Of a DNA stretch of 47,173 nt, positions 19,085-47,173 are shown piece after piece. Location of the stretch: positions 1-47,173 of the forward strand of contig WFSG01000016.1 in NCBI GenBank assembly GCA_015486075.1. The letters run 5' to 3'. The position numbers and the translations under genes were made by a program. Each line of letters opens with the position of its first letter. Within the stretch, counting starts at the first letter, position 1. Origin of the DNA: Deltaproteobacteria bacterium. GTDB lineage: Bacteria; Desulfobacterota; Desulfomonilia; UBA1062. The notes beneath the pieces were generated by a model. That model did not search any database and was not told the origin of the DNA. It was given only the letters and a program-made list of their open reading frames with translations.

Positions 19085-19402
19085 GGCGGAAGGCGGAAGG
19101 TATTAAGACAGGGTATAAGGTACAAGGTATAGGGTATAAGGTAAAAGATACAGGTCTCGGGTATCGGGTTCCGGGTGCCGGGTAAAAGAAAAGGCATAAT
19201 GAGCATCCAGCTGTCAGCGAGAAAACTTTGGCCATAAACCTCGTACCGTAAACCTTATACCTTGTTTCTAGCTATCAGCCCTCAGCTTTCAGGTTATTTG
19301 CCTGGAACCTGATACCTGGCACCTGGTACCTGACACCTGGTCTCGGGTATCGGGTTCCGGGTAAATAACCTTGTCACTGATCGCTGAAAGCTGACAGCTT
19401 AT
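19085..19402. repeat. Heptamer-based repeat array A3
   Basis: About 320 bases of phased heptamers in blocks. AAGGCGG units come first, then GGTATAA/GGTACAA units, AAAAGATACAGG, GGTATCG/GGTTCCG/GGTGCCG units and a 65-base unique core. After the core the same blocks appear in reverse orientation (CCTTATA, CAGCTTT, CCTGGCACC), then GGTATCG units, AAATAACC and GCTGAAAGCTGACAGC. It fills the gap between NUDIX and macro-domain genes; I see no gene in it. Confidence 0.85.
19153..19309 (+). repeat. 157-bp direct repeat, copy 1 (partner at 20817-20973)
   Basis: The two 157-base segments differ at about six positions. A shared unique core (starting AAAAGAAAAGGCATAATGAG, about 65 bases) is identical in both. 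The copies bracket the macro-domain and pseudopilin genes. Confidence 0.9.
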
Positions 19403-34782: not shown

Positions 34783-36567
34783 TTACTGTGAGACGGTGTA
34801 AAGGATTATGCCGTACTGACCCACACTGACAAAGCGAGATCCGTTCCAGGCAATGTTATACAAATCCTTATCTGTGGGCGAGGTCTGTTCAGTCCAGTCT
34901 TTTCCGTTCCTGCTGCATATGATGGTGCCACTTGATCCCACGGCAAGAAGTTCATGGCCGCTCCATGTTAACCCGCGAAGGTTAACGTTAGGACATGTCT
35001 GGGGAGGTACCTGGCTAGTCCATGTATCACCGTCAGAGCTGGTAAGTATGGTACCAGTATCCCCAACCACAACAAACATGGACCCATTCCACGTAACTGC
35101 AGATAAATCATTTGAAGTGCCAGAAGACTGAGATGTCCACGTAACACCATCACTACTGGTAAGTATGGTACCAGCCGTACCAACTGCAACAAACATGGAC
35201 CCATTACATGCCACAGCATAAAGGTACTCCGTTGTATTCGATGTCTGGCTAGTCCATGTATTCCCATCAGAACTAGTGAGTATGGTCCCATTCTGGCCTA
35301 CTACAACAAACATGGACCCATTCCACGTAACTGCAGATAAATCATCTGAAGTGCCGGAAGACTGAGATGTCCACGTAACACCATCACTACTGGTAAGTAT
35401 GGTACCAGCCGTACCAACTGCAACAAACATGGACCCATTCCACGTAACTGCCTGGAGATATTCTGTAGTTACATTGGTATCAGTCTTATCATCCCATGTT
35501 ATTCCATCAGTACTTGTGAGTATGGTCCCACTCTGGCCTACTATAACAAACTCTGAATTACCCCAGGTAATGCCATCAAGATAGACTGTCATACCCACAG
35601 GGGCCTGGATATCCCACGTGCTACCATCTGGACTGGTGGCTATGACCCCTATGGTCCCCACAGTTACAAATTCAGAACTGCCCATGGTAACATACATAAG
35701 TGCGTATGTGTACGACGTATTCAGGTTTGCAGCTGTCCAGGATGTGCCGTCAGAGCTGGTAAGTACGGTATTGCCAGCACCCACGGCAACGAACTTGTTC
35801 TGACCCCATGTAACGCTATAGAGATAATTCGACGTACCTGATGCCTGAGCTGTCCAGGTTATCCCATTAGGGCTCGTGTGTATCTCTCCGTTTTGACCCA
35901 CAGCTACAAATTTGTTATTACCCCAAGTAACGCCGTTGATAGTCTTGGTTGTATTAGAGGTTCTTTGTGTCCAGGAATTACCATTATCACTGGTCAGTAT
36001 AATACCTTTGTAACCTACCGCAACAAACCTTGACAAGGTATTACTCCAGGTGATGTCTGTAAGGGAGTCTGTAGCGCCAGAAGACTGAGACGTCCATGTG
36101 ACACCGTCAGAGCTGGTAAGTATGGTACCATGAGCACCCACGGCAACGAACCTCAATAAAGACCCAGCCCATGCAATGCTTGTAAGCTCGTAAATTGTGC
36201 CTGATGTCTGAGCTGCCCAGGTTATCCCATCAGGACTCGTAAGTATGGTACCGTTATCACCTACTGCAACAAACTTGGAATCACCCCAAGTAATGCCCCT
36301 TATATTCTCTGTTATACCAGAGGCCTGGAGCGTCCAGTCAACCCCGTTTGTACTAGTTAGTATGGTTCCATTATCACCTACCGCAACATACGTATCAGAG
36401 CCATTATAAGCAACTGATCTAAGCGTATTCGCCTGTGGTAACGGGTTGGCCCAGTGCCATGTGTAGTTGTAAGAATAGCTGGTAGCCAGAACCCCATGGC
36501 TGCCGCCGCTACTACAGGCAGAGAGCAGAAGCAAGACAAGTGCTAACCATGGTAATATTTTTTTCAT
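34783..36567 (-). CDS. Repeat-rich lipoprotein with 13 beta-propeller-like repeats
   Basis: A 594-residue protein. The signal peptide ends in lipobox LSAC (Cys18), so it is a lipoprotein. The rest is made of 13 repeats of about 39-44 residues, each with a 'VTWNGSMFVAVGTAGTILTS' half and a 'SDGVTWTSQ' half. This S-x-D-G-x-T-W pattern is shared with BNR/sialidase-type and YCF48-like propeller blades. They probably fold into one or two propellers on the cell surface or in the periplasm. Two of the later repeats are nearly identical at DNA level (35070-35203 and 35304-35437, 234 bases apart), showing recent expansion. Partners and ligand are unknown. It is monocistronic, with a strong terminator. 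Confidence 0.8.
   Translation of the reverse strand: MKKILPWLALVLLLLSACSSGGSHGVLATSYSYNYTWHWANPLPQANTLRSVAYNGSDTYVAVGDNGTILTSTNGVDWTLQASGITENIRGITWGDSKFVAVGDNGTILTSPDGITWAAQTSGTIYELTSIAWAGSLLRFVAVGAHGTILTSSDGVTWTSQSSGATDSLTDITWSNTLSRFVAVGYKGIILTSDNGNSWTQRTSNTTKTINGVTWGNNKFVAVGQNGEIHTSPNGITWTAQASGTSNYLYSVTWGQNKFVAVGAGNTVLTSSDGTSWTAANLNTSYTYALMYVTMGSSEFVTVGTIGVIATSPDGSTWDIQAPVGMTVYLDGITWGNSEFVIVGQSGTILTSTDGITWDDKTDTNVTTEYLQAVTWNGSMFVAVGTAGTILTSSDGVTWTSQSSGTSDDLSAVTWNGSMFVVVGQNGTILTSSDGNTWTSQTSNTTEYLYAVACNGSMFVAVGTAGTILTSSDGVTWTSQSSGTSNDLSAVTWNGSMFVVVGDTGTILTSSDGDTWTSQVPPQTCPNVNLRGLTWSGHELLAVGSSGTIICSRNGKDWTEQTSPTDKDLYNIAWNGSRFVSVGQYGIILYTVSQ
35070..35203 (-). repeat. Intragenic duplication, copy 1 (second copy at 35304-35437)
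   Basis: The 134 bases match the second copy with only two differences, and the offset of 234 bases is exactly two 39-residue propeller repeats. Copies lie in frame within the lipoprotein gene. Confidence 0.85.
35304..35437 (-). repeat. Intragenic duplication, copy 2
   Basis: Second copy of the 134-base segment at 35070, encoding nearly identical blade sequence. The offset of a whole number of repeats suggests slippage or unequal recombination. Confidence 0.85.
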
Positions 36568-37435: not shown

Positions 37436-37690
37436 AAGGTATGAGGTACGGGAATGTATGGTGCAAGGATGAAGGTAAAAGATACAGGTAAAAGATACAG
37501 GGTATCAGGTATCGGGTGCCGGGTTCCAGGTGTCAGGTAAAAAGGACAGAGGCACAAAGTAAAAACAGGTATAAGGTAAAAGGTACAAGGTATAAGGTAC
37601 AAGGTGTAGGGTATAAGGTAAAAGATATAGGTTCCAGGTGCCAGGTAAATGAGCTTAGGGCTGAAGGCTGACGGCTGATAGCTAAATAAA
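37436..37690. repeat. Heptamer-based repeat array A5 (left of cysK)
   Basis: On the plus strand the blocks come in a fixed order: AAAGATACAGG, GGTATCAGGTATCG/GGTGCCG/GGTTCCA/GGTGTCA units, GGACAGAGGCACAAAG, then GGTATAA/GGTACAA/GGTGTAG units. They continue AAAAGATATAGG, GGTTCCA/GGTGCCA, AAATGAGC and GGCTGAAGGCTGACGGCTGATAGC. The array fills the 400-base gap between the thioredoxin and cysK genes. It lies as an inverted partner to the array at 38695. Confidence 0.85.
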
Positions 37691-38694: not shown

Positions 38695-38851
38695 GCTATC
38701 AGCCTTCAGCGATCAGGTTATTTACCCGGCACCCGATACCTGGAACCCGATACCTGACACCTGGAACCTGGCACCCGGCACCTATATCTTTTACCTTGAA
38801 CCCTGTACCTTGTACCTTATACCTTGTATCTTATACCTTGTACCTTTTAGC
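38695..38851. repeat. Heptamer-based repeat array A6 (right of cysK)
   Basis: Read on the minus strand this repeats the block order of array A5: GGTACAA/GGTATAA units, AAAAGATATAGG, GGTGCCG/GGTTCCA/GGTATCG units, TAAATAACC and GCTGAAGGCTGATAGC. It fills the space between two convergent stop codons. Confidence 0.85.
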
Positions 38852-39677
38852 CTGAGTGGCCATTAATAAGCCTTAGGCCGTTTTCAAAGAATACCCTTGA
38901 ATAGAATTCATCGGATAGGTCGAGCCCGGAGAGAAACCTTAGCTCTTCTTCCCTTGGTAAAATGAGGTTAGGGAAGTCAGAACCGTATACTATCCTGTCC
39001 TTGGCATTCTCCAGGTCCTCGGTTGAAATAGCCGACATAACGGGCGAGATGGAAAGAAACGTAAAGGCGGTATCCATGTATATATTGGGATAGTCTTTTA
39101 GAAGATCCATGAACTCCCTGTACTCGTAGCCTCCCAGGTGAGCAACATTTGCAGGGAGCTCCGGGTACCTGTCCAGCAGCTTCCTGAAGTTCTTTATGCC
39201 CACGAACTTACTCCCAACAGGGCCTGTTCCCACATGGAAGAGTATTCTTTTATCTCTATCCATCACCATCTCGTATAAGGGAAAAAGCCTCTTGTCGTGG
39301 GGATAAAAATTCTGCACGAGCAACTGTAGCTTGAACCCAAGGACCCTCGGATAAGAAAGCACCTTCTCTGCCACCTTGATGGCATTCTCATCGTCCGGGT
39401 GAAAGGCTGCAAAGCAGTACAGGTCAGGCATCTCATCAAGTACTCTCAAATTCCATTCATTGAGTTCTTCTGCAACGCCCTTCTTGTGGGCATAATTAGA
39501 ATACACTATGGGGCTTACGTTATGTTTCTTTAGATAGTCGATGCACTCCCTGTAATAGAACTGGTAAAGTACGTCCCACTTGTATACCTTTGAGAAATAA
39601 TCCCATATGGAATCAAAGAGCCTGTCTGGGAAAAGGTGCACGTGGAAATCAATAATCCTGCTAGGTATTTTATTCAT
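38847..39677 (-). CDS. Amidohydrolase family protein (amidohydrolase_2 type)
   Basis: A 276-residue TIM-barrel hydrolase. 'IIDFHVHLFP' near the N-terminus is the metal-binding H-x-H strand. Further ligands are likely the His in 'KRILFHVGTG', in 'PANVAHLGGYEYREF' and the Asp in 'DRIVYGSDFPN'. The family includes decarboxylases (ACMSD, resorcylate decarboxylase) and hydrolases, so the reaction is open. ATG 39677, with AAGGAG ten bases upstream, is preferred over an ATG at 39704. It is divergent from the TetR gene, with the 20-base palindrome between them. It may therefore belong to the same regulon as the acyl-CoA dehydrogenase operon. Its stop is within array A6. Confidence 0.83.
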   Translation of the reverse strand: MNKIPSRIIDFHVHLFPDRLFDSIWDYFSKVYKWDVLYQFYYRECIDYLKKHNVSPIVYSNYAHKKGVAEELNEWNLRVLDEMPDLYCFAAFHPDDENAIKVAEKVLSYPRVLGFKLQLLVQNFYPHDKRLFPLYEMVMDRDKRILFHVGTGPVGSKFVGIKNFRKLLDRYPELPANVAHLGGYEYREFMDLLKDYPNIYMDTAFTFLSISPVMSAISTEDLENAKDRIVYGSDFPNLILPREEELRFLSGLDLSDEFYSRVFFENGLRLINGHSG

Positions 39678-39791
39678 AGTAATCTTACTCCTTACTTGTG
39701 GCATTGCAACGCAATAAGCATAATACCTGAATAATATAGATAGCCACGCCTGTCAAACCCAGGCAGTGAATATTTTATCTTTCTACTGGAC

Positions 39792-39916: not shown

Positions 39917-40543
39917 GTGTCAAAGATCTCTGAAGTCAAGCGCGAGAAAACAAGGAAGAAGATAGTAGATGCAGCGAGCGAGCTGTTCAGCAAGCACGGC
40001 TTCCACAACACCCAGGTAATGGATATCGTCAAGGCAGTAGGCATGTCTGCCGGAACTTTCTACAATTATTACAAGGACAAGAAGGACCTTTTTGAACAGG
40101 TCATAATGCAGAATTTCGAAGTCATGAGGCACAAGATAAAGGAGCTACGCCAGCCGCTAAACATAAGCGACAGGCAAGACAGGTTAAAAAAGATCCGCGA
40201 GTCATGGACAACGTTCTTTGATTACCTGGATAACAACCCCCAACAGGTACTCATGCTCCTAAGGAGCAGTTTTGGAGTGGATGAGCTATTTGATCTGAAT
40301 ATATGGGAACAGATAAGCGTATGCGCAAGGGACCTGGCCGATGACGTGCAAAAATGGATAGACGAAGGGTTGATGGAGGGGATCAAACCAGTATTGCTGG
40401 GCCATGCTATCGTTGGCATGGCCATGCAAATAGCGCACAGCTACCTCGTGGAGAACAAGTTCACAAGGGATGAGGCCATTGAGGCACTGGTCAACATGAG
40501 TATGGCAATGTTTGATATGTATACGAAGGAGGCGGAAGGTTAA
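39917..40543 (+). CDS. TetR/AcrR family transcriptional regulator
   Basis: A 208-residue TetR repressor. The N-terminal helix-turn-helix is 'ASELFSKHGFHNTQVMDIVKAVGMSAGTFYNYYKDKKDLFEQVI' (about 18-61). The C-terminal domain resembles TetR_C regulators of fatty-acid and CoA-ester metabolism ('FGVDELFDLNIWEQISVCARDLADDVQKWI'). Start is GTG 39917 with GGAGGTTT upstream. The last codons (ending KEAEG) run into heptamer-like sequence. It lies just before, but separated by a 363-base element from, the acyl-CoA dehydrogenase operon, which it probably controls together with itself and the divergent amidohydrolase. The ligand is perhaps an acyl-CoA; that is inference. Confidence 0.88.
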   Translation: MSKISEVKREKTRKKIVDAASELFSKHGFHNTQVMDIVKAVGMSAGTFYNYYKDKKDLFEQVIMQNFEVMRHKIKELRQPLNISDRQDRLKKIRESWTTFFDYLDNNPQQVLMLLRSSFGVDELFDLNIWEQISVCARDLADDVQKWIDEGLMEGIKPVLLGHAIVGMAMQIAHSYLVENKFTRDEAIEALVNMSMAMFDMYTKEAEG

Positions 40544-40550
40544 ATGCGAA

Positions 40551-40913
40551 AGGCATAAGGTTCAAGGTATAAGGTACGGGGTACAAGGTACAAGGTATAG
40601 GGTTTAGGGCAAAAGATACAGGTTCAGGTACCAGGTGCCGGGTGCCAGGTGTCAGGTACCAGGTAAATGACAAGGCACAAAGGGACAGAGGCACAGAGGC
40701 ACAAAGGGACAAAGGCACAGAGGCACAAAGTAGTAACAGGTATAGGGTTCAGGGTATTGGGTTAGGTACCAGGTTCCAGGTATGGGGTATCGGGTAAATA
40801 ACCTGAAAGCTGATAGATGAAGGCTCATTACACCTCTTTTTTACCCGGCACCTGGTACCCGATACCTGAGACCTGTATCTATCCCCATACCTTATACCTT
40901 GTACCTTATGCCT
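40551..40913. repeat. Fold-back heptamer element A7 with 31-bp terminal inverted repeats
   Basis: The ends 40551-40581 and 40883-40913 are inverted copies with 29 of 31 matches (outer end AGGCATAAGGT). Inside, AGATACAGG and GGTACCAGGTGCCGGGT units on the left are again mirrored on the right (40848-40882). The middle contains GGCACAGA/GGCACAAA/GGGACAAA octamers (40674-40733) and GGTATAGG units. No gene is encoded. It separates the TetR gene from the operon start, leaving about 25 bases to the ATG. Confidence 0.85.
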
Positions 40914-40938: not shown

Positions 40939-42180
40939 ATGAAGAAAAAACCAGACGACGTGTTTATCTACCCAGGCACGTGGATAAACGAAGACGCAAG
41001 GGACTTTGTTGCAACCGTTGAAGACTGGGCAAGGAAGGAGATCATATCAAAAAGGCTCGAATACCAGAAGGAATACAAGAAGCTATTCCACGAAAAGAGG
41101 AAAAAGTTGCTTTTTGACATTGGGCTGGACAAGATTATCTTACCCGAGGAATACAATGGTTTTGGCTGGAACACGCCCGAGAGGGCACCTGACTTGTTCA
41201 GTATATTCACGGAGATAGGAAAGGCCGATGCATGTGTGGGTTTCCTGGCTGCAGTAAAGTACGCGTGCTTTGCACTCGTCTCCATGGAACCAGATATAGA
41301 CAAGAAACTACTGGATGACCTCGTTCCAACTTACTTTGCAGAAGATCCCAAGGATGTAGCAATCATATTACCTGGCCCTGGTATCATGGGTAAAGAGACA
41401 CCCCTTTTCAAGGCAAGATCAATAATGGCGAACGTAAAGTCCACAAAGGCTGGCAACACTATCGAGGGTAAAGACCTAAGGCCAACAGGGGGCGGTGCAG
41501 ATGCTGAGCTATTCTGCGTGGTGTGTGCAGACAAGGGGAAAGAAGCATGCATAGGGTTCGTACCTGCAGATGCAGAAGGGGTCAAGAAGGGTGCACCCAT
41601 AAAGGAGACAGGCCTTGATGCATGCACAAACGCGGACGTGAGCTTTGATAAGGTAAAGGTTCCGAGCTCCTACCTGGTCAAGCGGAAAGCTGCTGTCCAA
41701 GAGCTCTACGTTTGGCTGAACCTGCTCTTCGGCAGTACAAGCCTGGGTGCTGCAATGAATTTCTACGAGATACTCTATGACTGGGCAGATACGCGTACAA
41801 TAAAGGGTGGGGGGCGTCTCAAGGAGAATCCCCTGTGTGCATCCGTCCTCGCAGACGTGGCTAGAGAGATATCAATGGCAAGGATCTCTGGCCTGGGCCT
41901 GGCCCACATCATGGCACAGTCAGGGGAAAGAGGCGGAATTGGGAGCCCTGGTGTATACACATTTGCACAGATGATTGGATCAAGCATGCAGAAAAGCGCG
42001 CTATCTGCACTGAACCGGGGCATGGAGCTAATGGGATCTGCAGGCTATTCCAAGGAATGGCACGTGGAAAAACACTGGAGGGATATCAAGACAATACAGG
42101 CATACCTATCTGGCGTGGGCTCTGATATCCCGGTGAAAATGGATATTGCCAGGTTTTTCTATGACACAGAGGAGGTGTAG
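40939..42180 (+). CDS. Acyl-CoA dehydrogenase family protein, subunit 1
   Basis: A 413-residue flavoprotein of the acyl-CoA dehydrogenase fold. It has the N-terminal helical domain ('LLFDIGLDKIILPEEYNGFGWNTPERAPDLFSIFTEIGKADACVGFLAAV'), a beta domain ('ITGG'-like segment 'DLRPTGGGADAELFCVV', 'PADAEGVKKG') and a C-terminal helical domain. At the position of the usual catalytic glutamate (the YEGT motif), the sequence after RDIKTIQAY reads LSG, so that glutamate is missing. The beta domain is also short of standard FAD-binding motifs. It is followed two bases later by a second acyl-CoA dehydrogenase. The pair is likely a heteromer, as in steroid-side-chain dehydrogenases. AAGGAGGTCAT gives a strong start. 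Confidence 0.85.
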   Translation: MKKKPDDVFIYPGTWINEDARDFVATVEDWARKEIISKRLEYQKEYKKLFHEKRKKLLFDIGLDKIILPEEYNGFGWNTPERAPDLFSIFTEIGKADACVGFLAAVKYACFALVSMEPDIDKKLLDDLVPTYFAEDPKDVAIILPGPGIMGKETPLFKARSIMANVKSTKAGNTIEGKDLRPTGGGADAELFCVVCADKGKEACIGFVPADAEGVKKGAPIKETGLDACTNADVSFDKVKVPSSYLVKRKAAVQELYVWLNLLFGSTSLGAAMNFYEILYDWADTRTIKGGGRLKENPLCASVLADVAREISMARISGLGLAHIMAQSGERGGIGSPGVYTFAQMIGSSMQKSALSALNRGMELMGSAGYSKEWHVEKHWRDIKTIQAYLSGVGSDIPVKMDIARFFYDTEEV

Positions 42181-42182
42181 AC

Positions 42183-43466
42183 ATGAATAGCTTTGAAGAC
42201 TTCTCAAGACCTGAAGAATATGTATCCCCTGGAATAAAGTACTTCCGCATGGTGCTGAGGGACCTTATTGAAAAAGAGGTTATGCCTGTTAGGAAAGAAT
42301 TCGACGAGGACTGGGAAGAGCACAAGCTAATAGAGCCCCTCTTCGACAAGATCATGGGTAATAAAGGGCTTGGCACGCAAAAAAGCCTGTTCCCAGAGGA
42401 AGTGGGGGGATGGGGCCTCGGGCACTCAGACTACCTAGGCGGCTTTGCATATGCAATGGCAGAAGAGGTGGGCAGGGCAGACACGGGATTTGCCGTAGCA
42501 TACCTAGTAACCCTGTGGCCGCTTCTAACCATACTTGTTGAACCATACGTGAACTGGAGACTCGCAAGGGAATTTGCACCCATGTTCTGCAACTCGGACA
42601 AGGCTGTGTTTGCTGCCATGTGCATGACAGAACCCCAAGGAGGAGCTGACATTGAAAACCTTGAACTACTAAAGGGTAAGACCATACGTACCACTGCAAG
42701 GCTGGAAGGTGATGAATGGGTCATAAACGGCCACAAGCTCTGGCCAACCAACACGGGTGGTGTGGCTGATCTCATGGCAGTACCCTGCACCACGAACCCT
42801 GGGTCAGACAACCCTGACGACTATGCACTTATATTTGTGCCTGCAGATACAAAAGGAGTAACACAAGGCAGGCCCTACGAAAAGGCAGGCATGGCTGCAG
42901 ATAAAAACGGGGATATCTGGTTCGAGGACGTAAGGGTTCCTAGTTGGTACAGGGCACATGGTCCGGGTACAGATGCAAAGGTGTTCATGAAATTCGTAAT
43001 CCCACTCGGTAACGTTGGAAGCATGGGCATGCTGGTAGGCGCCATGCTGAACCTATATGAAAGGCTCTACGAGTTCGTGTCCACGAGGACTTACAACAAC
43101 AGGCCTTTAAAGGAAAATGATGCAATAGCAGGGCTCATAGGCAAGATCGCGGGCGATATCGATGTATGCAGAATAATAGGGCATGAAGCTGCCATGATAA
43201 TCGACAGGCGCAACAAGCCCTATGGCAAACCCCTTGATTCAGCCGAGGTCATAGGAAAGACAAGGAGCATGAAGAAATTCATTGCAGATACAGCAGTAGA
43301 GGACTTTGGCCTGGCAATGGACGTCCTCGGAGTATACGGGGTTGACAGGGAATGGGATATTGAAAAGCACTGGAGAGACATAAAGATGATACAGCTCTGG
43401 ATGGGCGGAAAACAGCTCTGCCAGATGGAGGCAGCCAGGTACTTCTACAACTGTGAAACTCTCTGA
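42183..43466 (+). CDS. Acyl-CoA dehydrogenase family protein, subunit 2
   Basis: A 427-residue acyl-CoA dehydrogenase with more of the standard FAD-binding features: 'MCMTEPQGGADIENL', 'GDEWVINGHKLWPTNTG' and 'IPLGNVGSMGMLVGAMLN'. A C-terminal 'GVYGVDREWDIEKHWRDIKMIQLWMGGKQLCQMEAARYFY' aligns with the family's last helices. The YEGT catalytic glutamate is replaced here too: WMGG follows RDIKMIQL. It pairs with the preceding subunit. It is followed 22 bases later by three helical proteins of unknown function. Substrate is not predictable; a cyclic or branched acyl-CoA is plausible given the iron-sulfur subunit at the end of the operon. Confidence 0.87.
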   Translation: MNSFEDFSRPEEYVSPGIKYFRMVLRDLIEKEVMPVRKEFDEDWEEHKLIEPLFDKIMGNKGLGTQKSLFPEEVGGWGLGHSDYLGGFAYAMAEEVGRADTGFAVAYLVTLWPLLTILVEPYVNWRLAREFAPMFCNSDKAVFAAMCMTEPQGGADIENLELLKGKTIRTTARLEGDEWVINGHKLWPTNTGGVADLMAVPCTTNPGSDNPDDYALIFVPADTKGVTQGRPYEKAGMAADKNGDIWFEDVRVPSWYRAHGPGTDAKVFMKFVIPLGNVGSMGMLVGAMLNLYERLYEFVSTRTYNNRPLKENDAIAGLIGKIAGDIDVCRIIGHEAAMIIDRRNKPYGKPLDSAEVIGKTRSMKKFIADTAVEDFGLAMDVLGVYGVDREWDIEKHWRDIKMIQLWMGGKQLCQMEAARYFYNCETL

Positions 43467-43488
43467 TGCCAGTGAGAAGGAGGTAGGC

Positions 43489-43905
43489 ATGGACCAAAGT
43501 AGAGGCTTGATTGATGCGGCAAACAGGACATTGGAAGAACTCCTCTCGCGCCCTGTGTTCAAGGATTCACTGAGGAGCATGATCAAGAACATAGACCCTG
43601 AGTCCACGAGGAGACTGGTAAACACCATCATGTGGAAGGACCAGGAGGTATTTCTTGCCCTATTGGGATCAATCCCACTCGTTGCAAATACTCTCATAAC
43701 AGCACTTGATGAACTCCTGGCCCAGATGGATCAGAAGTTCACTCCTGAGCTCCTTAAAGGTTTTACTGAATCCATACTGGCCGACATTGACCTGAAAAAG
43801 GCGTTGAGCGTGGTCTCAAGACTCCAGGACCTCATCAAAGAACTCTCTCCAGCACTGAACAAAGCCCTGGAAAATGCAAGTCCTGACAAGGGAAAAGGAG
43901 ACTGA
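43489..43905 (+). CDS. Helical protein of unknown function, paralog 1
   Basis: A 138-residue, almost all-helical protein without recognisable family motifs. Its centre shares a clear pattern with the next gene: 'LEELLSRPVFKDSLRSMIKNI' and 'NTIMWKDQEVFLALLGSIPLVANTL' here, 'LKTPVFKEVLRGHLKAIDA' and 'RSIMWQDVEVFLAILGSFPPIIN' there. This is followed by a matching 'FTPELLKGFTESILADIDL'. The start is ATG 43489 with AAGGAGGT. One base separates its stop from the next start. The moderately hydrophobic segment in the middle is not long enough for a certain membrane helix. Function unknown. Confidence 0.65.
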   Translation: MDQSRGLIDAANRTLEELLSRPVFKDSLRSMIKNIDPESTRRLVNTIMWKDQEVFLALLGSIPLVANTLITALDELLAQMDQKFTPELLKGFTESILADIDLKKALSVVSRLQDLIKELSPALNKALENASPDKGKGD

Positions 43906-43906
43906 C

Positions 43907-44542
43907 ATGGCGTTTAACGAACCAAAGAGGGGAAGCATAATAGATGAGATACTAAAGACACCGGTTTTCAAGGAGGTCTTGAGAGGCCATCTAAAGGCAA
44001 TTGATGCGGGTAAAGGCCCTAGAATGGCCAGGTCAATAATGTGGCAGGATGTCGAGGTATTCCTCGCCATCCTAGGGTCCTTCCCACCCATAATAAACAA
44101 GTGGATAGCAACAATAGGGGAATCAGGCAGGCAAATCAGCGAGAAGTTTGCGCCCCAGCTCCTAAAGGAATTCATGGGGAACCTGCTAAAAGACATTGAT
44201 CTAGATGCTATCAAGGAGTGTGGAACCACTTACAAAGAGCTCTCAAGGAGATTTCTGGAACACTCGCCAGAGATAACCTCAGGCATAGGTGACAGGCTTG
44301 CAAAGGCCATGGCTAAAGGAATCAACTCTTTTTCCTACATGGTAAACGCAAAGGCACAACATGACCCTGGTTTCTTAGACAGGTTCATGTCCCAAGTGTC
44401 AAGGCACGTGGATAAAGATGCCTTAAGAGATGCAAGCCTTATAATTACAGATGCAGTGCTTGACCACAGGCCACATATTGCCCCGCTTGCAGGTAAGGTC
44501 ATTGCGAGGAGGGTAAAGAAACGCATGAAAAAAAATAAATAA
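43907..44542 (+). CDS. Helical protein of unknown function, paralog 2
   Basis: A 211-residue protein whose first 110 residues are clearly related to the preceding gene and carry the same 'IMWQDVEVFLAILGSFPPIINKWI' core. It then has a second helical part (about 120-211) with 'LEHSPEITSGIGDRLAKAMAKGINSFSYMVNAKAQHDPGFLDRFMSQVSRHVD' and a very basic end (ARRVKKRMKKNK). The ATG 43907 start has AAAAGGAG before it. Its tail could touch membrane lipid or nucleic acid, but there is no direct evidence. Unknown function. Confidence 0.65.
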   Translation: MAFNEPKRGSIIDEILKTPVFKEVLRGHLKAIDAGKGPRMARSIMWQDVEVFLAILGSFPPIINKWIATIGESGRQISEKFAPQLLKEFMGNLLKDIDLDAIKECGTTYKELSRRFLEHSPEITSGIGDRLAKAMAKGINSFSYMVNAKAQHDPGFLDRFMSQVSRHVDKDALRDASLIITDAVLDHRPHIAPLAGKVIARRVKKRMKKNK

Positions 44543-44589
44543 AAGTGACTGCAGGCCCATGAGTCCAGGAAAAGACACAGGAGAAGCCA

Positions 44590-45894
44590 GTGAGCACAAG
44601 TGTGCAGGCAAGTAGCACCGAGGTAGAAGAACTTCTTAAAAGTATTACTAGAGAGATCATTCAGAGACCAGGGTTAAGGAAACTGGCCTTTTCCCTCCTG
44701 GAAGGATCTATAGACAGGTGGTCTGGAAAGAGCAGGATAAAGAAAGCTCTATCAAGGCCAGTAAAAAGGCTTTTCTCGGGCTTGGCCAGGCCTGGCATAA
44801 CAAGACAGGACCACGACCATTTACCAGCTCACCTTGGAAGGCTCATAACAGCTCTTGCAAGGGACCTAAATGAAGGCCGCAAAAAAGACCGGGAAAAACA
44901 CGAAACCAAGAGGGAACAGGCAATAAGTGATTTCATCGTAAACACGGATCTAGGCGAGATAAGGGAGATGGTACAGGCTTCCGAGGAGACCGTGCTCAGG
45001 ACCCTGGACATGACAAACATAACATTATTCAGGTATCCAGCCAAGATAGCAAGCATACTGGCAATCCTTGTAGACATCATGAATATCACTCTCAAGTCCA
45101 TTGTACACCTCATAAAACCCCTCATGGACAACCTGGGCCCTGATCTCACGGCAGATATTATGCTCACCTCGTTCAGGAACATACAGGGGAAAGAGGTTGG
45201 AAAGATCATAGGCAACATAACCGAGATGTTAAGAAGGCTCCATGCAGGAAGCCTTTTACTTGGAAAGGGTGGGACACCCTTGTTCAAGGTTTATCTCTCC
45301 GACTTTCTTAATGATCTAATATCAGGTATTGACCCTGAGATACTGCAAAAAGCAAGGATTGCACTCTCTGAGGACAGAAGAAGCCTCCAGGAGGCACTTG
45401 TAGAGAACCTGCAGGACAACCACGACCTGCTGAAATCCTTCATAACATCGTATTCAGACGTTAAGAACCCCTCTATACAGGCATCATCCATCAAGGTAAG
45501 GATGTTCGAGGACCTGGCACCCAAAGAGCTCGCAGATGCCATGCAAGAAGGTCTATCAGGTCTTGATGTCCAGGAGGCAGCAGAGATTGTAAACTCAGTT
45601 ACAAGGATAGCCAACAGCATTCACGAAGAAAACCCGGATCTTTTCTATAACCTGTTCAAGAGCTTTTCCGATGCCATTGATCCTGAAGAGCTAAAATTTG
45701 CCATGGAATGGATGGTCCCCGAGCTGACGGAAAGTATCAGGCCCTTGGCGTACGCGTTCATGCCTCAACTAGTAAATGCCTTTTGTGAGCTCATCACGCC
45801 ACTGGAAGGTGACGAAACCCCGGAACACATAGAAGCAATGCAAAGGCTAAGAAAGATACTGGCCGAGTCAAAAGGTGATAAAAATGATCAATAA
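44590..45894 (+). CDS. Large helical protein of unknown function, paralog 3
   Basis: A 434-residue protein with a basic N-terminal part. At about 130-200 a core ('LFRYPAKIASILAILVDIMNITLKSIVHLIKPLMDNLGPDLTADIM') resembles the cores of the two preceding proteins. Two further helical units repeat related patterns (GIDPEILQKARIAL, GLDVQEAAEIVNSV, AIDPEELKFAMEWMVPELTESI). It looks like a multi-copy version of the same helical unit. The start is GTG 44590 with CAGGAGAAG before it, and its end overlaps the iron-sulfur subunit gene by 11 bases. That coupling suggests a functional link. No catalytic motif is visible. Confidence 0.65.
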   Translation: MSTSVQASSTEVEELLKSITREIIQRPGLRKLAFSLLEGSIDRWSGKSRIKKALSRPVKRLFSGLARPGITRQDHDHLPAHLGRLITALARDLNEGRKKDREKHETKREQAISDFIVNTDLGEIREMVQASEETVLRTLDMTNITLFRYPAKIASILAILVDIMNITLKSIVHLIKPLMDNLGPDLTADIMLTSFRNIQGKEVGKIIGNITEMLRRLHAGSLLLGKGGTPLFKVYLSDFLNDLISGIDPEILQKARIALSEDRRSLQEALVENLQDNHDLLKSFITSYSDVKNPSIQASSIKVRMFEDLAPKELADAMQEGLSGLDVQEAAEIVNSVTRIANSIHEENPDLFYNLFKSFSDAIDPEELKFAMEWMVPELTESIRPLAYAFMPQLVNAFCELITPLEGDETPEHIEAMQRLRKILAESKGDKNDQ

Positions 45895-47056
45895 GGCACG
45901 GGACATAGCAAGGAGCATATACAACCCCTACGTGGAAGACTGGAAAAACCAGGGCAAGAAGGTCATTGGCTATCCATGCACATACGTACCCGAAGAGATC
46001 ATACATGCCTCATCCATGCTCCCTTTCAGGCTGAGGGGTATTGGCACCACGTCCTTATCCATTGGGGACACGTATTTTGGCCCTGTTATATGCAGCTTTC
46101 CAAAGGCCATACTCCAGCTTGCAGGTGAGGGGAAATATAACTTTTTAGACGGTGTCATCATAACACCTGGATGCGATTCCATGCGGAGGATACACGAGTG
46201 CTGGAGAAAGGCAGGACAGGACTTCGAGGGCATACTACCTGGCTACTTCTATTATTACGGGGTACCGCACAAGGTGAGTGACTACAGCATAAGGTGGTTT
46301 GTAGAGGAGACATTTTTACTCATAAAGAGCCTGGAAGATCACTTTGGCGTGAAGATAAGAGATGGAGATCTTGAAAACTCAATAAGTGTCTACAACAGGG
46401 GAAGGGAGCTCCTTAAAAAGCTCGACCAGATGAGGATGTCGGATGATCCGCCCGTTACCGGGGAAGAGGCACTTGCCATTATAATAGCAGGCTTTGGCAT
46501 GCCAAGAGAGGACTACAATGATCTCTTGCAGGGTGTCCTGTATGAGCTGGAACATAGGAAAGTGGATACAGGTGGCAGTAAGAAAAGGCTCATGCTTGTT
46601 GGCAGTGCAAACGATGACCTGGATTTCGTGAACCTAATAGAATCGTGCGGGGCAGTGATTGTCGCTGACACCATGTGCTTTGGATCGAGGTCATACAATG
46701 ACATGGTCGAGGAAAATGATTCCCCGGTGGTGGCACTGGCAAAACGCTACCTAAACCACAGCTACTGCCCAAGGATGTTTGGTTACTACAGGGATAGGTT
46801 CAATTACCTCTTAAAAAGGGTAAAGCAAGCAAGAGTGGATGGCGTGATACTCCAGAACATACGGTTCTGCGACCTGCATGGCTCGGAGAACAGTATCTTT
46901 GAGAGGGACCTCGAGAAAATGGGCATCCCCTGCCTCAAGATAGAGAGGGAATACGGTCCCTTGGTGGAAACAGGAAGGATAAAGATGAGGGTAGATGCGT
47001 TTATCGAACGGATAAGTTCTATGAATAAGGTAGAAGGCGGAAGGCAGAAGGCGTAA
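45884..47056 (+). CDS. 2-hydroxyacyl-CoA dehydratase / benzoyl-CoA reductase (HgdB/BcrBC-type) subunit
   Basis: A 390-residue iron-sulfur protein of the 2-hydroxyacyl-CoA dehydratase component D family, which also contains benzoyl-CoA reductase BcrB/BcrC-type subunits. The three conserved cysteines of the 4Fe-4S site are present: Cys32 ('GYPCTYVPEEIIHA'), Cys97 ('TPGCDSMRR') and Cys329 ('IRFCDLHGSE'). Such subunits work in pairs, with an ATP-driven activator that supplies one low-potential electron. Neither partner nor activator is in the window, although they may lie beyond the edge. I chose ATG 45884 over GTG 45875. Its last residues (VEGGRQKA) are encoded by the heptamer array that follows. 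Confidence 0.87.
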   Translation: MINKARDIARSIYNPYVEDWKNQGKKVIGYPCTYVPEEIIHASSMLPFRLRGIGTTSLSIGDTYFGPVICSFPKAILQLAGEGKYNFLDGVIITPGCDSMRRIHECWRKAGQDFEGILPGYFYYYGVPHKVSDYSIRWFVEETFLLIKSLEDHFGVKIRDGDLENSISVYNRGRELLKKLDQMRMSDDPPVTGEEALAIIIAGFGMPREDYNDLLQGVLYELEHRKVDTGGSKKRLMLVGSANDDLDFVNLIESCGAVIVADTMCFGSRSYNDMVEENDSPVVALAKRYLNHSYCPRMFGYYRDRFNYLLKRVKQARVDGVILQNIRFCDLHGSENSIFERDLEKMGIPCLKIEREYGPLVETGRIKMRVDAFIERISSMNKVEGGRQKA

Positions 47057-47173
47057 GGTATTAAAACAGGGTATAAGGTAAGAGATACAGGTTCCAGGTA
47101 TCGGGTGCCAGGTGCCGGGTAAAAAGGGACAGAGGCACAAAGTAAAAACAGGGTATAAGGTACAAGGTAAAAG
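47035..47173. repeat. Heptamer-based repeat array A8 (continues past window)
   Basis: AAGGCGG units are followed by TATTAAAACAGGGTATAAGG, AGAGATACAGG, GGTTCCA/GGTATCG/GGTGCCA/GGTGCCG units, GGGACAGAGGCACAAAG, then GGTATAA/GGTACAA units. It shares its opening block order with array A3. The array begins inside the 3' end of the iron-sulfur subunit gene and runs off the window. Confidence 0.85.

Follow-up and report, generated by a model that had tools for sequence, protein, structure and literature searches.

A conserved operon from a UBA1062 bacterium with a putative ATP-driven iron-sulfur reductase and an uncatalogued family of helical proteins

INTRODUCTION

What reaction is served by an operon in which two acyl-CoA dehydrogenases, three helical proteins and a BzdN-like iron-sulfur subunit are encoded side by side? 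This question is raised by contig WFSG01000016.1 (hereafter C16) of the 2.3-Mb draft genome of a Deltaproteobacteria bacterium of the UBA1062 lineage (GCA_015486075.1), the whole of which, 47,173 nucleotides, is the window analyzed here. The genes are ACD1 and ACD2 (acyl-CoA dehydrogenases, ACADs), HA, HB and HC (helical proteins) and HGD (the iron-sulfur subunit). HGD belongs to a superfamily whose reductions are among the lowest in potential known in biology, and for which few physiological reactions have been established.

A preliminary description made from the sequence had read these genes as a six-gene operon, possibly for the conversion of a cyclic, aromatic or unusual acyl-CoA. We found that the operon is real and conserved, and that the family of its helical partner proteins is absent from the Pfam and NCBIfam libraries. 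Sequence comparison makes it likely that the operon encodes a low-potential iron-sulfur reductase, driven by ATP and laid out like class I benzoyl-CoA reductase. The open-access literature searched held no description of the cluster (subscription papers lay outside the search).

RESULTS

The operon continues on a second contig

All six genes run in the same direction, and the spacings from ACD1 to HGD, taken from the open reading frames (ORFs) and the DNA, are 2, 22, 1, 47 and –11 bases; the starts at 43489, 43907 and 45884 were chosen by their clear ribosome-binding sites. These values agree exactly with the gaps and the 11-base overlap given in the preliminary description, and they support its view of a single transcription unit. 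The six genes are all present, but their number is an artefact: the operon appears to contain six genes because contig C16 ends there. The final 133 bases of C16 are the initial 133 bases of contig C38 (an exact suffix-prefix overlap), and the ORFs of C38 extend the operon in the same direction with HGDb, ACT1, ACT2, ACSd2 and CooC. The genome thus holds at least 11 genes of this operon, of which those in the window are the proximal half.

HGDb (467 aa) is a second HGD-D subunit, ACT1 and ACT2 are two BcrA/D-type activators, and CooC is a CooC-like ATPase. ACSd2 (249 aa) has a homolog that resembles residues 18–158 of CdhC, and is an acetyl-CoA synthase (ACS) domain-2-like fragment. C38 accordingly supplies what the preliminary description had proposed to look for beyond position 47173, namely a second subunit of the HGD/BcrBC type and ATPase activators. 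The ACS-domain-2 and CooC genes had not been foreseen in that description.

HC adjoins HGD across several phyla

An HGD-alignment scan of 84,980 species yielded 79 loci in Desulfobacterota, Spirochaetota, SAR324 and other groups. Of the 77 loci that were not truncated at that side, 76 had HC immediately upstream of HGD (74 by the ORF test, together with L128 and L135, in each of which the HC ORF stops beside the HGD match), and the two genes overlapped by 4 bases in 51 of 74 measured loci. Because HC stands next to HGD in these loci across several phyla, the association between helical and enzyme genes is not due to chance. The preliminary description had held that chance was likely if the helical genes neighbored such enzymes in no other genome, and this is clearly not the case. 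The helical trio are indeed conserved partners; however, HC alone is the core partner, a division that had not been foreseen. HA and HB were present only in loci that also contain ACD1 and ACD2 (22 loci). In the other clusters examined, a gene for a GMC-type flavoprotein fills the upstream position; the small unnamed ORFs beside these GMC-type clusters are not relatives of HA or HB.

The order ACD1-ACD2-HA-HB-HC-HGD-HGDb-ACT1-ACT2-ACSd2-CooC is kept in UBA1062-family and Smithella genomes and, indeed, wherever the locus of a relative is complete enough for the order to be read, and HGDb comes after HGD wherever the contig permits. In some of these loci, often in those of the UBA1062 family, a second TetR gene lies between HB and HC, and a second copy of HGDb occurs in some cases. 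Among 42 genomes of the class, HB was detected in 20, every one of them from the UBA1062 family; among 395 genomes sampled from the phylum it was detected in 14, each belonging to that family or to Smithella. Many relatives carry an extra block composed of a flavodoxin/4Fe-4S protein, another HGD-D pair, a 4Fe-4S protein and a third activator; a close ortholog of HGDc was looked for in this genome and not found. The core module also occurs in at least one cultured strain, Desulfatibacillum alkenivorans DSM 16219 (L129). In the Syntrophaceae bacterium isolate Zod_Metabat.41 (L110), an extra activator and HGD-D set lies between ACT2 and ACSd2, an expansion by duplication.

We also compared the divergence of the proteins. 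Over 44 loci, the pairwise distances of HC rose with those of HGD (r = 0.86; 0 of 2000 permutations) and of ACT1 (r = 0.88). Divergence is quicker in HC than in the enzymes, with a mean distance of 0.71 compared with 0.45 for HGD.

The helical proteins form one family

The relationship among the three helical proteins, proposed earlier, was borne out by several searches: HB recovers HA (43% identity, E = 2e-20), the HC profile recovers HA and HB proteins in other genomes (E from 7e-7 to 8e-9), and a profile-profile comparison of HB with HC gave E = 1.7e-15 and a probability of 98.5%. Only sub-threshold matches were obtained for HA, HB and HC and for the alignments of HB and HC against Pfam, and the same was true of the helical proteins when the window proteins and the HC alignment were compared with NCBIfam. 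The AlphaFold2 model of HC is all-helical (predicted local distance difference test, pLDDT, 87.3; predicted template modeling score, pTM, 0.72), and a Foldseek search with it gave no significant match in the PDB and viral libraries. The model of HB is also all-helical, at low confidence (pLDDT 66, pTM 0.39), and found no significant match by Foldseek. Weak PDB sequence matches to AP-1 beta (E = 0.004) were judged to be a helical-repeat artefact.

No clear membrane segment was seen in HA, HB or HC; a conserved stretch forms a moderately hydrophobic helix in HA and HC and a weaker one in HB. These proteins could plausibly act as a scaffold, assist assembly or carry acyl groups.

Cluster and activator residues in the operon proteins

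The closest PDB match of HGD was BzdN (8s02_B, E = 4.4e-51). In the alignment, BzdN residues C36, C73, C100, C263, C293 and C327 correspond to C32, C70, C97, C265, C295 and C329 of HGD, which are invariant in 16 homologs, and R53, R267 and H330 of BzdN are also kept. The [8Fe-9S] cluster of BzdN is reported to be held by six cysteine ligands (PMC11971306); judged by that count, the six aligned cysteines of HGD would be the ligands of such a double-cubane cluster. HGDb aligned weakly with HadB and BzdO, with the best PDB score for HadB; C134, C163 and E103 of HGDb correspond in this weak alignment to C95, C128 and Glu65 of BzdO.

In ACT1 and ACT2, the cluster cysteines C125 and C164 are invariant and the nucleotide motifs of activators are present; in locus L037 both proteins exceed the TIGR00241 cut-off. 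The P-loop GKGGVGKT and the CxC motif of CooC are invariant in 51 sequences. The CxxCx5C motif of ACSd2 is also invariant. Elsewhere in this genome, a 1392-aa candidate PlsA/Ger-like protein with two activator domains is encoded (L170:924-5102, G000:C44), and plasmalogen or ether lipids are possible in this organism.

The acyl-CoA dehydrogenase pair lacks the usual base

The N- and C-terminal Pfam domains of ACADs exceeded their cut-offs in both ACD1 and ACD2, and the middle domain did so only in ACD2. A residue check showed that the canonical catalytic Glu (the YEGT-type position) is missing from both proteins, which read YLSG (ACD1) and WMGG (ACD2) there, and these changes are consistent across nearly all homologs. 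ACD1 and ACD2 may use another base, act as reductases or have an electron transfer role. In a paralogous ACAD pair on contig C45, without helical neighbors, the second member keeps YEGG. This locus (G000:C45:1178-3722, L005) comprises the ACD1/ACD2-type pair followed by an MBL-fold-like protein, and the opposite strand close by encodes proteins that look like FAD oxidases and cysteine-rich 4Fe-4S proteins (names given by eye).

BamA is absent from nearly all carriers

BamA is the ring-opening hydrolase of benzoyl-CoA degradation. None of the 24 UBA1062-family genomes had a match to its model (TIGR03200) above the cut-off; such a match was found in 1 of 13 other carriers of the core module, compared with 15 of 18 genomes of the sister family that served as a positive control. 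Because BamA is absent from 36 of the 37 genomes tested, canonical benzoyl-CoA degradation is unlikely, and the aromatic substrate offered in the preliminary description is not supported in the benzoyl-CoA sense.

Features in and around the operon

The features of the operon region are collected in Table 1. The TetR-family gene precedes ACD1 here as in relatives: TetR genes 50–55% identical to it adjoin ACD1 upstream in UBA1062-family loci, where this gene belongs with the operon.

Table 1. Positions of the operon genes, the upstream regulator and the contig end in the window
Feature	Position	Strand	Evidence
TetR-family regulator, probable local regulator	39917..40543	+	PF00440, E 2.4e-16
ACD1, divergent acyl-CoA dehydrogenase	40939..42180	+	PF00441, 45 bits; PF02771, 28 bits
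ACD2, acyl-CoA dehydrogenase	42183..43466	+	PF02770, 62.7 bits; PF00441, 54.1 bits
HA, small helical paralog, 138 aa	43489..43905	+	homology to HB
HB, helical paralog, 211 aa	43907..44542	+	no Pfam family above cut-off
HC, large helical protein, 434 aa	44590..45894	+	no Pfam or NCBIfam family
HGD, BzdN-like subunit with the six cysteines of the putative [8Fe-9S] double-cubane site	45884..47056	+	PF06050 (HGD-D), E 8.9e-88
Contig-end segment, 133 bases, identical to the start of C38	47041..47173	.	exact suffix-prefix overlap

Upstream, an Amidohydro_2 protein is encoded at 38847–39704 (– strand). It may be functionally linked to the cluster, because in L076 and L081/L161 the same cluster is followed downstream by homologs with 63–64% identity. 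A degenerate 7-base unit, GGTACCA/GGTGCCG-like with AGGTATA and AAGGCACA variants, forms intergenic arrays in the window at 19097–19361, 37473–37645, 38723–38846, 40550–40866 and 47027–47119, and at both ends of L088; we counted 35 matches to GGTACCAGGTGCCRGG at ≤3 mismatches, compared with 0.7 expected. C16 ends in such an array, and C38 begins and ends in such stretches. A tandem repeat with a 117/234-base period (3.7 copies) lies at 35011–35448.

DISCUSSION

A proposed mechanism

From the gene content, order, homology, cluster and activator residues and co-inheritance observed, we infer the following electron path, complex formation and roles for HA, HB, HC, ACSd2 and CooC. ACT1 and ACT2 would pair as an activator dimer bridged by a [4Fe-4S] cluster, in which ATP hydrolysis would drive electrons into HGD, to be stored on the [8Fe-9S] double cubane. 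HGDb would hold the substrate-reducing [4Fe-4S] cluster, bound by three cysteines beside a catalytic Glu, and electrons and a hydrogen atom would pass to the substrate bound there, probably a CoA thioester. HC would be a dedicated helical subunit or an assembly or scaffold partner of the HGD complex, and HA and HB would be its duplicated relatives that recruit the ACD1/ACD2 flavoprotein pair, a place that the GMC-type flavoprotein would take in other lineages. ACSd2 and the CooC-type ATPase would probably help to insert a metallocluster or take part in an additional step gated by ATP.

Several known proteins resemble single parts of this arrangement. HGD has the cysteine set of the double-cubane cluster protein (DCCP), although it reached 181.6 bits against a cut-off of 350 for the DCCP model NF040772, and it is paired with a different HGD-D subunit, whereas DCCP is a single-gene homodimeric enzyme. 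The part of CdhC, the acetyl-CoA synthase beta subunit, that ACSd2 resembles is a stretch of a 464-residue protein, but ACSd2 lacks the A-cluster domain, and no carbon monoxide dehydrogenase/acetyl-CoA synthase genes were seen in the cluster. The CooC-like ATPase shares its P-loop and CxC motif with CooC.

A number of observations weigh against the proposed reductase, or against parts of it. HGD and HGDb score well short of all curated equivalog cut-offs. The Bzd scores of the operon proteins were 176 against 453.8 for bzdN, 23.1 against 448.6 for bzdO and 198.7 against 380.2 for bzdQ, and the HadB and HadC scores were 35.9 bits for HGDb of L037 against 750 and 161.5 bits for HGD against 700. 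In HGDb, C413 is invariant, and its match to BzdO Cys380 is probable but lies outside the local alignment; BzdO His131, which stands beside the cluster-bound water, is replaced by an invariant Asn166. Ordinary acyl-CoA oxidation by ACD1 and ACD2 is doubtful, because both lack the usual base. The co-divergence of HC and HGD is partly due to shared phylogeny, and contact of HA, HB and HC with the enzyme is a proposal from gene neighborhood. The sole exception to HC-HGD adjacency, L158, has ACD1-ACD2-HGD without any helical gene on a 3.6-kb contig; this contig (LIHK01000034.1, Bathyarchaeota archaeon BA2) could be an archaeal minimal version or a binning error.

Alternative functions

The operon could instead encode a genuine ring reductase of benzoyl-CoA degradation, with ACD1 and ACD2 acting on the cyclic acyl-CoA products. 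The likeness to class I benzoyl-CoA reductase (BzdNOPQ) comprises two subunits of the HGD-D fold, two different activator ATPases, the six BzdN-type cysteines, BzdN as the closest solved structure to HGD and, in the weak alignment of HGDb, two BzdO-type cluster cysteines and the equivalent of the catalytic Glu65. Nevertheless, Asn stands in place of His131, every bzd/bcr equivalog cut-off is missed widely, the cluster adds HC, ACSd2, CooC and, here, HA, HB, ACD1 and ACD2, and BamA has the distribution described above, so that we regard this function as unlikely. It is likewise improbable that HGD and HGDb remove water from an (R)-2-hydroxyacyl-CoA after one-electron activation. The (R)-2-hydroxyisocaproyl-CoA dehydratase HadBCI belongs to the same superfamily and shares the fold and, as predicted here, the three-cysteine cluster in the catalytic subunit and ATP-dependent activation, and HadB is the best-scoring structure for HGDb. 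However, a dehydratase role is argued against because HGD has six cysteines: two of these BzdN-type positions are not Cys in HadC, and the set is that of a double cubane instead of the reduced [4Fe-5S] set of the HadC-type subunit (PMC11971306). The HadB and HadC cut-offs are also far from reached, and the cluster has two distinct conserved activators, whereas the known dehydratases have, to our knowledge, one homodimeric activator.

ATP-driven reverse electron transfer in syntrophic fatty-acid oxidation, running from the ACAD-like pair through the helical proteins to the ATP-driven cluster enzyme, would suit the exchange of flavoprotein genes (ACAD pair or GMC) at the same position and the putative fatty-acid syntrophs in UBA1062 and some Spirochaetota (PMC13248872), both of which groups carry the cluster (Spirochaetota families not matched). 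Yet class I-type systems use one ATP per electron (PMC11971306), which looks too costly for syntrophs; neither an electron transfer flavoprotein nor a menaquinone oxidoreductase gene was noticed within the cluster, and both ACADs lack the base, and we consider this function quite unlikely. A split plasmalogen synthase or glycerol ester reductase (PlsA/Ger) that converts ester to ether lipids is very improbable. PlsA and Ger likewise join activator and dehydratase-type domains (PMC11150832), and the ether-lipid producer D. alkenivorans carries the cluster (L129; PMC11150832); however, the 1392-aa candidate PlsA-like protein of this genome matches only ACT1 and ACT2, whereas its similarity to HGD, HGDb and HGDc is not significant, and demonstrated Ger enzymes are single-chain (PMC11150832, PMC13274423), whereas the genes here are separate. 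This hypothesis was rejected, since the similarity is confined to the activator domains.

Implications

The ATP-driven reductase thus remains the likely reading, and the absence of BamA argues against the obvious substrate. Because syntrophic degradation of fatty acids has been proposed for UBA1062 and for certain Spirochaetota families (PMC13248872), fatty or alicyclic acyl-CoAs are reasonable candidates. A bolder proposal, to which we give rather less than an even chance, is that radical reductases of a new, ATP-driven class contain HC as an integral subunit, joined by HA and HB in loci with the ACAD pair. Such an enzyme would combine several flavoproteins with a double cubane, would be matured by a CooC-type arm of its own, and might act on a non-aromatic acyl-CoA (e.g. 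a fatty or alicyclic one) in anaerobes that are syntrophic or associated with hydrocarbons. The cluster spans several phyla of mostly uncultured anaerobes, together with a co-inherited HC/HA/HB family in which HC has a confidently predicted fold without a PDB match, and the presence of the core module in cultured D. alkenivorans DSM 16219 makes these proposals testable.

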